The notes under the pieces: model-generated
Told to the model about the DNA's origin: nothing
The model's database searches: none
The model's input: the letters and a program-made list of their open reading frames with translations, nothing else
Made by a program: the position numbers and the translations under genes
NCBI GenBank assembly: GCA_013298845.1
Contig: JAAFJN010000001.1
Span: forward strand, 62,001 to 126,000
Source: Chitinophagales bacterium
GTDB taxonomy: Bacteria > Bacteroidota > Bacteroidia > Chitinophagales > Saprospiraceae
Length of the DNA: 64,000 nt
Direction: 5' to 3'
In this document: piece after piece, positions 1,745 to 35,400 of the stretch
How the letters are laid out: each line of letters starts with the position of its first letter
Position numbering within the stretch: the stretch's first letter is position 1

Positions 1745-3043
1745 TTACGCTGCTTTCAACTTAGAAATGCGCGATTTGCTCAATTTTTCTTCCGAATAAG
1801 CCCGATCAACGATAAATTTGTTGTCTTTTGCGCCTTCCGCACGAACATCAAACATGGCGTCGGTGAGAATGGCTTCGCAGAGTGAACGCAAACCACGCGC
1901 ACCTAATTTGTATTCCAACGCCTTCTCCGCGATAAATTCTACCGCGTCTTCGGTTAATTCGAGTTGAATACCTTCCATGGTGAACAATTGCTGGTACTGC
2001 TTGAGCAACGCGTTTTGGGGTTTGGTCAAAATTTCGCGCAACGTTTCGGTATCCAGCGGATCAAGGTGCACAATCACCGGCAAACGACCGACCAATTCCG
2101 GGATCAACCCAAACGATTTTACGTCCTGGTGACTAACGTATTGGAGCAGGTTTTCCTTGTCAATTTTTTCCGTTTGTTGTTTATTGTAGCCAATCACCTG
2201 CGTATTGACGCGGCGGGCGATATTTTTTTCAATGCCGTCAAATGCGCCACCGCAGATGAAAAGGATATTTTGGGTATTCACCTTCAGCATTTTTTGCTCC
2301 GGGTGTTTCCGTCCGCCCTGGGGTGGCACCAATACTTCGGCCCCTTCGAGCATTTTGAGCATACCTTGTTGTACGCCTTCGCCGGATACATCGCGGGTAA
2401 TGCTGGGGTTATCCTGTTTGCGGGCAATTTTGTCAATTTCGTCAATGTACACAATGCCGCGTTCGGCTGCTTCTACATCGTAATCGCACACCTGCAACAG
2501 GCGCGCGAGAATACTTTCTACGTCTTCGCCCACGTAACCGGCTTCGGTGAATACCGTCGCGTCCACGATGGTAAACGGCACGTTGAGTTGTTTGGCGATG
2601 GTTTTGGCCATCAGGGTTTTGCCCGTTCCGGTTTGTCCCACGAACAACACGTTTGATTTTTCAATCTCTACTTCGTTTTGAACCCCACTTTCGATGTATT
2701 GCAGGCGTTTGTAGTGGTTATACACGGCTACCGACAAAATGCGTTTGGCGTCATCCTGGCCAATGACGTATTTATCCAAAAACGCCTTCATTTCGGCGGG
2801 TTGTACGGGTTTTACTTTACTGCGGTATTTGGTTGAATATCCGCCGTCGCCTTCGTAGTTGCCCGTTTCTGCCGTACCGCCACCCACGGGCGTACCGAGG
2901 TGATGGTGCACCATTTCGGCGGCTTTTTCGGTGCAGGATTCGCAGATTTGAGCATCCATGCCCGAAATCAGGATCATGACATCGTCTTTACCGCGCCCAC
3001 AGAAAGAGCAGTTATTTTGTGACGTTTTTCCTTTTTTAATCAT
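1745..3043 (-). CDS. clpX: ATP-dependent Clp protease ATP-binding subunit ClpX
   Basis: A 432-residue AAA+ unfoldase that recognises, unfolds and threads substrates into ClpP. The N-terminal zinc-binding domain is visible as CSFCGRGK and CESC. The AAA+ core has Walker A GQTGTGKT, the pore loop GYVGEDVE, Walker [14 protein letters not shown] and the sensor-2 region GARGLRSL. The order tig-clpP-clpX is the common bacterial arrangement. The start codon lies 8 bp from a 12-unit heptamer array (3051-3134) that fills much of the gap to clpP, so that array is transcribed as the clpX leader if the genes are cotranscribed. An adenine-rich stretch precedes the ATG instead of a Shine-Dalgarno sequence. 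Confidence 0.98.
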
Positions 3044-3050
3044 TTCTTTT

Positions 3051-3134
3051 TTAAGACATTAGACGTTAGACGCAAGACTTTAGACAAAAGACCTTAGACA
3101 TAAGATTTTAGACACAAGACCTCAGATGTTAGAC
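3051..3134. repeat. Heptamer tandem array, TTAGACN type, 12 units
   Basis: Twelve consecutive 7-bp units end in AGAC or AGAT (for example ATTAGAC, GTTAGAC, GCAAGAC, CTTAGAC). It is in the clpP-clpX gap. The 36 bp at 3074-3109 are the near-perfect inverse (one or two mismatches) of 3230-3265 in the partner array, so the two arms could form a long stem in RNA or DNA. Confidence 0.9.
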
Positions 3135-3191
3135 CTTTGGGAATACTTTTCCCAAAAAACATTAAAATACAAAGGGCTATCTTAGACAAAA

Positions 3192-3221
3192 AGACATAAG
3201 ACGCACCAGCGTCTTATGTCT
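3192..3221. repeat. Perfect 13-bp hairpin inside the heptamer region
   Basis: Positions 3192-3204 and 3209-3221 are exact inverse repeats around the 4-nt loop ACCA. The arms are built from the heptamer sequence (AGACATAAGACGC). It could act as an attenuator or an RNA-stability element between clpP and clpX. There is no long T run directly after it in either direction. Confidence 0.7.
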
Positions 3222-3267
3222 CCACATCCAAAATCTTATGTCTAAGGTCTTGTGTCTAAAGTCTAAA
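3211..3267. repeat. Inverted partner heptamer array, GTCTNNN type
   Basis: Units such as GTCTTAT, GTCTAAG, GTCTTGT, GTCTAAA and GTCTAAA are the reverse complement of the array at 3051-3134. Read in the direction of clpP (minus strand), this array has the TTAGAC sense and begins 6 bp after the clpP stop codon. Confidence 0.85.
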
Positions 3268-3273
3268 AAAATC

Positions 3274-24125: not shown

Positions 24126-24209
24126 TAGCGCGAATGACGATGGATTGATGTGAAAGAGGTCGTCTTGTAAGTAAGATAATCAGGTTAGGTGTCAATGTTT
24201 TTTAATGTC

Positions 24210-24251
24210 GAATTTCGAACACCGAATTTTGAACATCGAACAGCGAAGTAT
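24210..24251. repeat. Heptamer array, GAACANC type, 6 units
   Basis: Units are GAATTTC, GAACACC, GAATTTT, GAACATC, GAACAGC and GAAGTAT. It lies downstream of flotillin in the same sense as that gene. The partner array at 24381-24450 is its reverse complement. The spacer between them (about 130 bp) has no recognisable gene. Confidence 0.85.
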
Positions 24252-24380: not shown

Positions 24381-24450
24381 TTCGGTGTTCAAAATTCGAT
24401 GTTCGGTGTTCGGCGTTCAAATTTCGGTGTTCGATGTTCGGTGTTCGATG
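24381..24450. repeat. Inverted partner heptamer array, TTCGGTG type, 10 units
   Basis: Ten uninterrupted 7-bp units (TTCGGTG, TTCGATG, TTCAAAA and variants). It ends two bases before the stop codon of the DUF5916 gene on the minus strand. Read from that gene, the array has the same GAACACC sense as the array behind flotillin. Confidence 0.9.
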
Positions 24451-24452
24451 TT

Positions 24453-28964: not shown

Positions 28965-29861
28965 GTGTTTTACGAAGCAGCATTTTTAACGCATCTTCAG
29001 AAAGAACGCAGATTGTCACAACATACGCTTGTGGCATATTCCAATGACTTAGCACAGTTTTTATCATACTGTCAAGATACATATAGCCTCACTTCGGTCT
29101 CCGAGGTGAGGCATTTGCATATACGGGCCTGGATAGTAAGCCAAATGGAAGCCGGTCAAAATCCGCGCTCCATCAACCGCCGTCTCTCGTGCCTGAAAAC
29201 CTATTTCCGGTACACCCAAAAAAACGGCTGGCTCGACCACGATCCCATGCAAAAAGTGGTGGCCCCAAAAACGGCCAAACGCCTGCCCGTGGTGATTCAG
29301 GAGCACGAAATGCGCCTGCTGCTCGCCAATATTCAGTACCCGGAAGGTTACGCCGGGTTGTTGCACCAAATCATTATCGAAGTATTGTACGCCACGGGAA
29401 TGCGCCGCAGCGAATTGGCCAACCTCAAGGTAGCCGACGTGGATTTTTCGCGTTCGGTGATTAAAGTCGTGGGAAAAGGCAACAAAATGCGCCTCGCGCC
29501 GGTGGCTTCTTACCTTTCGGACATGCTGCGCCGGTTCATAGACACCCGAAAAGAAACTTTCCCTACCGCCCCCGATCCGCAACTGCTGTTGTCCATCAAG
29601 GGGGTGCCGCTTAGTCCCGAATCTATTTACGCGATTGTGAACAAATACCTGTCGCTGGTGAGCAGTGCCGAACAACTCAGCCCGCACGTTTTGCGCCACT
29701 CTTTCGCCACCCATTTATCGGATCACGGTGCCGATCTGAACGCCATTCGGGAATTATTGGGCCACAGCAATTTGGCCGCTACCCAAATTTACATGCACAA
29801 CAGCATCGAAAAATTAAAAAAAGTATACGACCAGGCACACCCGAAGTCTAGTGAAGAGTGA
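28965..29861 (+). CDS. Tyrosine recombinase of the XerC/XerD type
   Basis: A 298-residue site-specific recombinase that would resolve chromosome dimers. The N-terminal SAM-like domain is at about 5-90. The catalytic domain carries Arg147 (ATGMRRSEL), Lys171, His241 and Arg244 (SPHVLRHSFATH), His267 (GHSNLAATQIY) and the nucleophile Tyr276. The start is GTG at 28965, three bases after the rpsU stop; no ATG is available nearby. The final residues (SSEE) and the TGA stop come from the AGTGAAN heptamer array, so the native C-terminus has been overwritten by repeat sequence. XerC versus XerD cannot be decided here. Confidence 0.93.
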   Translation: MFYEAAFLTHLQKERRLSQHTLVAYSNDLAQFLSYCQDTYSLTSVSEVRHLHIRAWIVSQMEAGQNPRSINRRLSCLKTYFRYTQKNGWLDHDPMQKVVAPKTAKRLPVVIQEHEMRLLLANIQYPEGYAGLLHQIIIEVLYATGMRRSELANLKVADVDFSRSVIKVVGKGNKMRLAPVASYLSDMLRRFIDTRKETFPTAPDPQLLLSIKGVPLSPESIYAIVNKYLSLVSSAEQLSPHVLRHSFATHLSDHGADLNAIRELLGHSNLAATQIYMHNSIEKLKKVYDQAHPKSSEE

Positions 29862-29926
29862 TTAGTGAAAAGTGAAGAGTGAAAAGTGAATAGGGAAGAG
29901 TGAAAAGTGAATAGGGAAGAGTGAAA
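29850..29926. repeat. Heptamer array, AGTGAAN type, 11 units
   Basis: The 11 contiguous 7-bp units are AGTGAAG, AGTGATT, AGTGAAA and close variants (AGGGAAG twice). It provides the last codons and the TGA stop of the recombinase gene. Its inverted partner is at 30027-30061. The 100 bp between them are A/T-rich without a gene. Confidence 0.92.
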
Positions 29927-30026
29927 AGATTGTTTTATGATGCCCGTAGTAGAGTGGCTATACCATTAAAAACAGTATTGCAATAAAATCAACTAATCGT
30001 ATAGCATTAATTCTAAAGGAAAAATA

Positions 30027-30061
30027 TTCACTCTACACTTTTCACTATTCACTTTTCACTC
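30027..30061. repeat. Inverted partner heptamer array, TTCACTN type, 5 units
   Basis: The units are TTCACTC, TACACTT, TTCACTA, TTCACTT and TTCACTC. On the minus strand they read AGTGAAN and encode the final VKSE and the TAG stop of the hydrolase gene ending at 30045. Confidence 0.92.
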
Positions 30062-30941
30062 CATTTTGTCTTTTTAAAAATCGCAAAATCGCTGCTGCGT
30101 ATTCCGTTCCGCCGTATCGGGACAAATCATTGTGGTGTGCGCCTTGTACCGGGTAAAATTCTTTGTTGGGCGTGGCCAAATGGTCAAAATTAACCCGTCC
30201 GTATTCAAATTTAATGCGTTCGTCCTCGGTGCCGTGGGCCATAAATACGGGACATTGAATTTGTTCGGCGGCCTGACAGGGCACAATGGAATCGGGTTCA
30301 AAACCACCTTGCCGGGCCGCTCGCTCAATGGCGTTATCAGCAAATGTCCGCGACGATACCTTAAACAGGCGCGACTGATAATCGTAAACAATATTGCGGA
30401 AATGGGTAAATGTACTCTCCACGATGCCAAATTGGATGCGTTTGTCGTAGGCCATAGACTGCAAGGCAATTGCCCCGCCCAACGAGTGCCCCCACACGCC
30501 AATCCGCAGCGTTGAGTCGCGCGCGAGCAGGTAATCGAGCAGGCGCGACACGTCCTTTTTTTCATAATACCCGTACGAACAACACGTACCGCCGCTTTGC
30601 CCGTGGGCGCGGGAATCCATCATCACCAACGAATAACCTTGTTGCCACAACCACTGGGCAGTGGGTAACCACCGTTCTTTGCAGTTGCCTACGCCGTGCA
30701 GCAACACAATCACCGGACGCTGGTGGGCGGTATCGTGGCGCACCCAAATACCTTTGAGCACGGTACTGTCGAAGGAAACAAGGGTAATATCTTCGGCGGG
30801 CAGGTTAAAATCGGCGGGCTTTTTGTCCCAATTGACCTTGCGCGGGTACAAAATCATACCGGGCGCCATAAAGTAAAGGGCGACCAAAAAAAGCGTCAAT
30901 AACAGGATAACGCTGATGGTGAGGCGTTTGAGCCATTTCAT
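30045..30941 (-). CDS. Membrane-anchored alpha/beta hydrolase
   Basis: A 298-residue protein with one N-terminal membrane helix (about 8-25) and a periplasm-facing alpha/beta-hydrolase domain. The oxyanion region is LLHGVGNCKERW, the nucleophile is Ser153 in GVWGHSLGG, and the acid/base residues fit MAHGTEDERI and QGAHHNDL. It resembles BAAT/Hydrolase_4-type enzymes with broad ester or amide specificity. A CC pair at 120-121 (GGTCCSYG) lies on the cap edge. The C-terminus is formed by the heptamer repeat. Confidence 0.85.
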   Translation of the reverse strand: MKWLKRLTISVILLLTLFLVALYFMAPGMILYPRKVNWDKKPADFNLPAEDITLVSFDSTVLKGIWVRHDTAHQRPVIVLLHGVGNCKERWLPTAQWLWQQGYSLVMMDSRAHGQSGGTCCSYGYYEKKDVSRLLDYLLARDSTLRIGVWGHSLGGAIALQSMAYDKRIQFGIVESTFTHFRNIVYDYQSRLFKVSSRTFADNAIERAARQGGFEPDSIVPCQAAEQIQCPVFMAHGTEDERIKFEYGRVNFDHLATPNKEFYPVQGAHHNDLSRYGGTEYAAAILRFLKRQNGVKSE

Positions 30942-35236: not shown

Positions 35237-35400
35237 CGCCGCACGATTGTGCGTTGATAATTCACCCCACGGCCGTGGGTTTATAACGAACACCCCACGG
35301 CTGTGCGTTTACAACGAACACCCCACGGCCGTGGGTTTATAACAAACACCCCACGGCCGTGGGGTGCTACGATGTTTATACCTACGTCCACGACCGTGGG
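35237..35400. repeat. Tandem 28-bp palindromic repeat array (about 5 units plus a partial)
   Basis: Three clear 28-bp units at 35263-35290, 35291-35318 and 35319-35346 start CACCCCACGG and end TAACGAA or TAACAAA. A degenerate unit precedes them (35237-35262) and a fourth follows (35347-35364), then a fifth core at 35388-35400. Each is centred on a palindrome near CCCACGGCCGTGGG. The last two cores are part of a larger 39-bp duplication that also contains the promoter region of the next gene. The array lies between two divergent genes. Confidence 0.85.

Follow-up and report, generated by a model that had tools for sequence, protein, structure and literature searches.

Between the genes for a tyrosine recombinase and a hydrolase, two arrays of the heptamer AGTGAAN face each other across a short core, and the question raised by this locus is what such a pair represents and how it came to occupy the gap. 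We examined it in a 64-kb window (G000:C1:62001-126000), the whole stretch of DNA analyzed here, which is part of a 6.37-Mb genome in 89 contigs. Our reading is that the arrays are probably the inverted arms of one dispersed foldback element, of which the window holds a short, gene-less, IVS-like, putatively mobile copy. The left arm, 11 tandem AGTGAAN units on the plus strand (29849 to 29928), overlaps the end of an XerC/D-like tyrosine recombinase open reading frame (ORF) (28965 to 29861, plus strand; PF00589 and PF02899). The right arm, five inverted units on the minus strand (30027 to 30061), overlaps the end of an alpha/beta-hydrolase ORF (30045 to 30941, minus strand; PF12146 and PF00561), and the 98-bp core between the arms (29929 to 30026) carries GCCCGTAGTAGAGTGGCTATACC, which by eye resembles a motif in other cores. 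Tandem Repeats Finder recovered both of the arrays that had been described from the sequence as 11 units facing five inverted ones: a 7-bp array of 11.0 copies at 29849 to 29925, which extends to 29928 at periods of 14 and 21, and an inverted 7-bp array of 4.9 copies at 30027 to 30060, which extends to 30061 at a period of 14. Variants among the left-arm units are AGTGATT and AGGGAAG (twice); the right arm is the reverse complement of the left unit, with one variant unit. Both neighboring ORFs stop inside the arms, in keeping with the assignment of the arrays to gene ends: the recombinase stop at 29861 is the TGA of AGTGA within a left-arm unit, and the hydrolase stop at 30045 is the TAG of TAGTGA, on the minus strand, within the right arm.

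The suggestion that the arms could form a long stem held up well. The predicted RNA fold of 29849 to 30061 reaches -63.8 kcal/mol, whereas shuffled sequences average -35.6 (z of -7.7, with 0 of 200 shuffles as good), and in it the right-arm units pair with the outer left-arm units; the core alone (29930 to 30026) gave no stable fold (z of -0.31). A strong stem would suit a gene-end structure, in which selection maintains the facing arms as putative bidirectional terminators or sites of RNase III processing, and a T-rich tract, TTTTGTCTTTTT, which starts a few bases past the right arm on the plus strand, points the same way. However, the minus strand beyond the left arm has no T-run, and a terminator pattern scan restricted to loops of 3 to 8 gave no match at the arms. 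Together with the placement and turnover described below, these features lead us to regard selection for gene-end structure as unlikely. The arms are A/T-rich; an intrinsic terminator has a G+C-rich stem with a U-run directly behind it. Rfam at the gathering score recovered one tRNA elsewhere in the window and nothing else.

We surveyed most or all of contigs C1, C2, C4, and C5 of this genome (1.02 Mb, 16%) against a set of 773 genes from our own simple dicodon caller, whose starts may be off. Arms were detected by period without reference to a unit, because position weight matrices of the three unit families merged on iteration. At a period of 7 the survey gave 66 arms, all 66 of them intergenic, while at the same threshold periods of 5, 8, 10, 11, and 13 gave none, a period of 6 gave five (none intergenic), and a period of 9 gave six (three intergenic); this excess at period 7, intergenic throughout, excludes chance. 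The arms are dispersed over 44 gene gaps, which hold 65 of them, and the 66th (C2:165747) lies past the last called gene. Because the caller missed a PF05635 gene at C1:412411 and called only part of another at C1:546080, 3 of the 44 gaps, including the single divergent one, are flanks of genes of this family, which is treated below.

Arms occupy 20 of 131 convergent, 23 of 507 tandem, and 1 of 131 divergent gaps (Fisher p of 1e-5 for convergent versus divergent and 1e-4 for convergent versus tandem). The enrichment in convergent gaps and near emptiness of divergent ones is consistent with a terminator or processing site kept by selection, but selection against promoter damage would equally lead to avoidance of divergent gaps. 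In addition, about half of the sites lie between tandem genes, where the second arm is often immediately ahead of a start codon, which argues against a gene-end structure and shows that the convergent arrangement of the original prediction is not the only one. All 20 of the 44 gaps with two or more arms hold facing arms (order +- in 19, +-- in 1, and -+ in none; sense was judged from purine content, a measure that comes close to 0.5 in a few arms), and a single arm passed the threshold in 24 gaps, one of which (C5:6582) by eye holds a tight back-to-back palindrome of CGAAC units and no facing pair. For 54 arms the closest gene boundary is a 3' end; 45 of these are directed into the gap, and 38 are no more than 20 bp away from that end. 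The 11 arms closest to a gene 5' end all point inward, 9 of them within 40 bp of the start codon. These counts of orientation and distance show that arms are placed nonrandomly relative to gene ends, so that the position first noted in the window recurs genome-wide; rather than belonging to one gene end, as had been proposed, a pair spans the entire gap. Of 23 AGTGA-type arms at gene 3' ends, 14 supply the stop codon from within a unit. Residual gaps at sites with arrays (medians of 20 for tandem and 4 for convergent genes) are not significantly smaller than array-free gaps (60 and 43; p of 0.15 each), so that the close fit of arms against stop codons can be explained by native gaps that were already short, with no additional targeting. 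We discarded a simulation that modeled insertion according to gap length, since gaps are overestimated wherever the caller missed a gene.

The main unit families in the 1.02 Mb surveyed are AGTGAAN, AGACNNN, and CGAACAN, joined by a GATTTAA type, and the unit length of 7 that had been noticed as common to three window units (AGTGAAN, AGACNNN, and CGAANNN) recurs in the genome. The second element of the window, with AGACNNN arms at 3053 to 3134 (plus strand) and about 3190 to 3264 (minus strand), only the left of which exceeded the survey threshold, lies in the gap 3042 to 3273 (C1:65043-65273). It is flanked by genes for a ClpX-type ATPase (zf-C4_ClpX; 1745 to 3043, minus strand) and a Clp protease (PF00574; 3274 to 3978, minus strand), which often form a tight pair. 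The third, with CGAANNN arms at 24209 to 24250 (plus strand) and 24381 to 24452 (minus strand), lies between convergent genes (C1:86125-86452). Each of the main families includes copies whose alignment to one another extends through the core, and the recurring cores include C1:381510 with C1:426389 (281 bp, 88%), C4:84954 with C4:111523 (187 bp, 85%), and C1:521461 with C1:554186 (243 bp, 76%). By eye, short cores are unlike the gene-bearing element outside the arms, which counts against our reading; also by eye, several copies are preceded by a T-run or followed by an A-run, an arrangement that is inverted rather than direct. Two candidate rules were rejected: the motif GSYACTC as a shared apical core motif (8 of 33 cores versus 1.0 expected, but mostly from two genomes) and a purine-strand polarity, which fits the three main families here and fails in relatives.

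These arms are linked to one gene family, PF05635 (23S_rRNA_IVP; NCBIfam TIGR02436, four helix bundle protein), for which we examined 30 loci in six genomes of the genus, one of them below the curated cutoff. Facing arms of one unit bracket 20 of the 30 loci, with an upstream arm at 23, a downstream arm at 25, and an arm on either side at 27; by the same criteria, 2 of the 773 genes of this genome and 0 of its 201 genes of 80 to 200 amino acids are bracketed, and an array lies on either side of 111 of the 773. The nearest named relatives of a PF05635 protein from the genus are in Saprospiraceae, which leads us to place this genome, probably, in Bacteroidota. The same design is found in many phyla. 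Among the best 80 of at least 540 confirmed PF05635 loci, 38 are bracketed and 68 are flanked by an array on one side or both, compared with 5 bracketed of 187 control ORFs within those loci; these best 80 include Bacteroidota, Planctomycetota, Chloroflexota, desulfobacteria, Verrucomicrobiota, and Omnitrophota, as well as a cyanobacterium, Acidobacteria, Gracilibacteria, and others. Arm periods in the 38 bracketed loci of this best-80 sample are 8/8 in 19, 7/7 in 16, 9/9 in 2, and 8/15 in 1, and the commonest arm period in the genus is 7. Bracketing of a protein family by arms is a further argument against a gene-end structure. Two results weigh against our own reading: in a phylum-wide sample of 30 PF05635 loci from 296 genomes, 232 of which have the family, only 7 loci are bracketed and 20 are flanked by an array on at least one side, and at one locus (L166) a back-to-back palindrome like that at C5:6582 lies ahead of the PF05635 gene and no arm follows it. 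Three PF05635 genes of relative G009 (L161, L164, and L171) have arms with periods of 8, 10, and 9, and the arms reach up to 465 bp.

The arms also have a consistent internal order: in 53 of 58 bracketed loci (the genus loci combined with those from the best 80 of at least 540), the arm richer in GT precedes the gene. The arm units match within one element in 20 of 21 cases and between elements of one genome in 6 of 76, and we regard this result as our best evidence that the gene and its arms are a single unit. This bears directly on plain array growth, the idea that polymerase slippage, a process put forward for long simple sequence repeats, expands heptamers at gene ends with the facing order as a by-product. 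A 21-bp higher-order periodicity in the window array, reported by Tandem Repeats Finder, is a sign of later slippage, and heptamers are cited as the most frequent class of long simple repeats in most genomes in a survey (Mrazek 2007, as cited in PMC4679880), but growth of this kind leaves a private unit in opposed arms unexplained. It also does not account for the recurrent cores, for element-free sites in relatives, or for the tie to a single gene family, and we consider it highly improbable.

Five PF05635 genes are present in this assembly (98% complete, 89 contigs). Those at C12:174 and C12:104403 lie between arms of AGTGAAN, the unit of the window pair, and their 119-residue products are identical. 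The two loci form a single alignment of 499 bp at 96.4%, which starts and stops within the arms; this is one duplicated unit of arms and gene, although the upstream arm at C12:174 has only two to three units and falls under the threshold. The gene at C1:412411 adjoins CGAAC arrays, the one at C1:546080 adjoins GATTTAA arrays, and the gene at C9:95109 (L173) comes right after a tRNA-like stretch and has three AGAC units past its stop. Similar PF05635 genes are found in relatives G003 (L156) and G005 (L169), and these and L173 all start with MFDFEKLEVYQVAR and have no bracketing arms; they look like ordinary resident genes and, judging from sequence, may be domesticated copies. None of the five PF05635 genes in the assembly is bracketed by arms of the AGACNNN family, which speaks against the element that we propose.

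Comparison with relatives shows that both units and sites turn over. Three consecutive AGTGAAN units gave 759 overlapping matches in this genome (344 + 415), against 14 + 28 for the same pattern written backwards, and were found in 8 of 59 relatives with at most 45 matches; in several relatives the backwards control equals or exceeds the pattern, which weighs against our reading, and AGTGAAN arrays in relatives are not all paired. Conversely, three consecutive GTTATCN units gave 153 matches in G027 and 0 in this genome, and are present in 7 of 42 genomes of the genus. We compared one syntenic operon in five genomes (this one, G003, G027, G034, and G005). The gap between g85192 and g83908 holds a 237-bp element in this genome and none in the other four, and the gap between g85723 and g85192 is 3 bp here and 11 bp in G003 and about 630 bp in G027 and G034, where it contains a PF05635 gene with heptamer arrays; the G034 copy at this shared site (L176) passed the arm test on one side only, a point against the element reading. 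In the region between g83908 and g82294, AGTGAAN arms in this genome have as their counterparts GTTATCN in G027, GTTATTN in G034, and, by eye, AAACACC-type repeats in G005; the G003 contig ends there. The gene g85192 (C4:85192-85719) ends in an array-encoded SSEE, and by eye the C-terminal tail is kept in G027, G034, and G005; from these alignments, the element seems to have shortened the gene, with the array replacing its C-terminal tail.

Homologues of the two genes beside the window pair give evidence on both sides of the gene-end question. Homologues of the XerC/D-like recombinase are present in 12 of 12 relatives searched, and 6 of these 12 loci, together with 3 of 7 hydrolase loci, could be read past the gene. 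All three readable hydrolase homologues (G034, G027, and G005, the best matches) end at hairpins, made of GTTATCN or GATTTTG units, and two of the six readable xerC homologues are followed by 8-bp repeats (detected in G020 and seen by eye in G016), as selection for a structure at these ends would lead us to expect; however, the remaining four xerC homologues (G003, G009, G007, and G021) are array-free, and the element is missing from other sites in relatives. In the stretches L134 to L138 from relatives there are nine facing pairs, and the five pairs that were folded all form long stems (z of -13 to -23); no facing pair was found in the stretches from G051 and G018 or in the operon stretch of G005, a point against our reading. 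The other units and sites of relatives indicate that the arm design is kept in the genus while unit and site turn over. In G061 (L323), a facing 7-bp pair lies directly before a start codon that by eye resembles that of the hydrolase homologue.

The original prediction is therefore partly supported as a whole. The arrays, their stem, their gene-end position, and their shared unit length stand, and the arms may have a terminator role, but a purely regulatory feature of convergent 3' ends does not fit the tandem sites with a second arm just before a start codon, the several cores that are dispersed repeats, the relatives with element-free sites or other units at the same sites, or the specific gene family that this arm design brackets in many phyla.

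The PF05635 protein is modeled as a four-helix bundle (pLDDT of 93), and its best PDB matches in a fold search are the S23-family structures 2RLD and 2GSC, followed by Avd (4DWL) and the ribonucleoprotein of a diversity-generating retroelement (DGR; 8UBE). The match to Avd has an E value of 0.025, a probability of 1.00, and a TM score of about 0.77 to 0.79. Our sequence profile A1 finds 2GSC and 2RLD and not Avd, which was reached by fold search only. Hairpins with short genes nearby recall REP/RAYT systems, and the short hairpins could owe their movement to a reverse transcriptase or to a Y1 (RAYT-type) transposase, the PF05635 gene being carried along as a passenger. Y1 genes are present in six of six genomes, and the Avd-like fold fits such a scheme in that Avd works with a reverse transcriptase; the likeness of PF05635 to Avd has been noted before (PMC10053308). 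However, facing arms bracket 0 of 20 Y1 transposase loci and 0 of 12 reverse transcriptase loci (contig ends truncate four of these loci, for which a position was assumed). An RVT_1 reverse transcriptase is not found in every host, because G027 and G005 hold PF05635 elements and have no RVT_1 match. We consider movement of this kind quite unlikely; by the same token, with the Y1 and reverse transcriptase families tested, no transposase was found for the elements, which counts against our reading as well.

Several known systems resemble the window pair in part. Foldback transposons and MITEs are short dispersed elements with inverted arms, and the arms of Galileo are internally repetitive; the elements described here are likewise short and noncoding with inverted ends, and they occur in many dispersed copies with some related cores, but the gene linked to them encodes a four-helix protein, and PF05635 genes share the arms while Y1 and reverse transcriptase genes do not. 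This also distinguishes them from REP/RAYT systems, in which the Y1 gene is flanked by the same palindromes (0 of 20 here), and from DGRs, with which they share the fold of Avd but whose reverse transcriptase has no bracketed counterpart in these genomes (0 of 12). The closest parallel is the 23S rRNA IVS, described in PMC4990558 for Coxiella burnetii as an S23p gene between inverted repeats that pair into a long RNA stem. The same paper calls the IVS a selfish genetic element of unclear function and origin and states that RNase III cuts the stems of such elements (PMC4990558). The gene-bearing elements here match it in having one small S23p-family gene within inverted repeats, and the window pair has the stem-forming terminal inverted repeats. 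However, the window copy lies between two protein genes and not in 23S rRNA, its 98-bp core is too small for a PF05635 gene (related elements with the same unit in this genome carry one), the arms consist of tandem units of 7 to 9 bp, and gene-less copies are many, with arms in 44 gaps of 1.02 Mb. The window copy is thus not a member of the rRNA IVS family, and its likeness in design is well supported. PF05635-type genes have also been reported within cas loci (18 genes) and in rRNA insertions of CPR bacteria.

The foldback element that we favor would consist of a tandem-heptamer arm, a core, and an inverted arm, with fuller members of the class carrying one PF05635/TIGR02436 gene of about 120 residues between or beside the arms. 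Such elements would settle in gaps between genes, where AGTGAAN-type arrays could supply the stop codon (TGA or TAG) that closes the upstream reading frame. The presence of one private unit in both arms of a gene-bearing element suggests joint copying of the two arms, for which fold-back synthesis or hairpin repair are examples; copying of one arm into the other via a hairpin would create private units and near-perfect hairpins, and later slippage would make the arms unequal, as in the window (11 versus 5 units). Transcripts crossing the element would be expected to fold into a long stem, and the RNA hairpin may be cut by RNase III, as in 23S rRNA IVS elements. The Avd-like PF05635 protein may bind the repeated unit, help in its copying, and serve mobility, in which case short gene-less copies could be moved in trans. 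We put forward more tentatively, at somewhat less than even chances, the wider proposal that rRNA IVS are the few members that landed in rRNA genes, that many unexplained heptamer arrays are gene-less copies, and that the arms may be hairpin-copied while a ring-shaped protein holds the units.

The S23/IVP structures 2GSC and 2RLD were solved in 2006 and 2007, and the family is described as having no known function. The question of IVS function and origin becomes testable with a free-standing version whose ends can be defined, which has a near-identical duplicate, and which is present at some sites and absent from others. It also shows an element sitting inside operons whose genes remain unbroken, partly by way of stop codons that the element itself provides. 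Among the matches listed in our literature search, no open-access title or abstract start tied PF05635 genes to inverted tandem arrays.

Some of the intergenic heptamer arrays of bacteria that lack an explanation may have arisen from such elements. PMC4679880 describes TAACTGA heptamers of Beggiatoaceae, Cyanobacteria, and Bacteroidetes as mostly intergenic, tandem, and patchily distributed, with other heptamer repeats beside TAACTGA in Bacteroidetes; these are direct repeats, mostly just upstream of start codons in the strain studied, with one inverted case. The words "intervening" and "four helix" are absent from the PMC4679880 text. Tandem intergenic heptamers are common to STRR/TAACTGA repeats and the arrays described here, but direct repeats without an inverted partner differ from the window pair and from the 20 of 44 gaps in which a facing partner is present. 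The listed matches to the GTTATCN pattern in G005 are GTTATCA units, that is, tandem TAACTGA, the heptamer of PMC4679880, read on the other strand. GTTATCN units build facing hairpins in G027, which provides a lead that TAACTGA arrays have the same origin. Elsewhere in the window, positions 35263 to 35363 hold a 28-bp unit in 3.6 copies, within which the palindrome CCCACGGCCGTGGG occurs; downstream of the PF05635 gene at C1:412411 there are GTGGG-type palindromes that look similar by eye.
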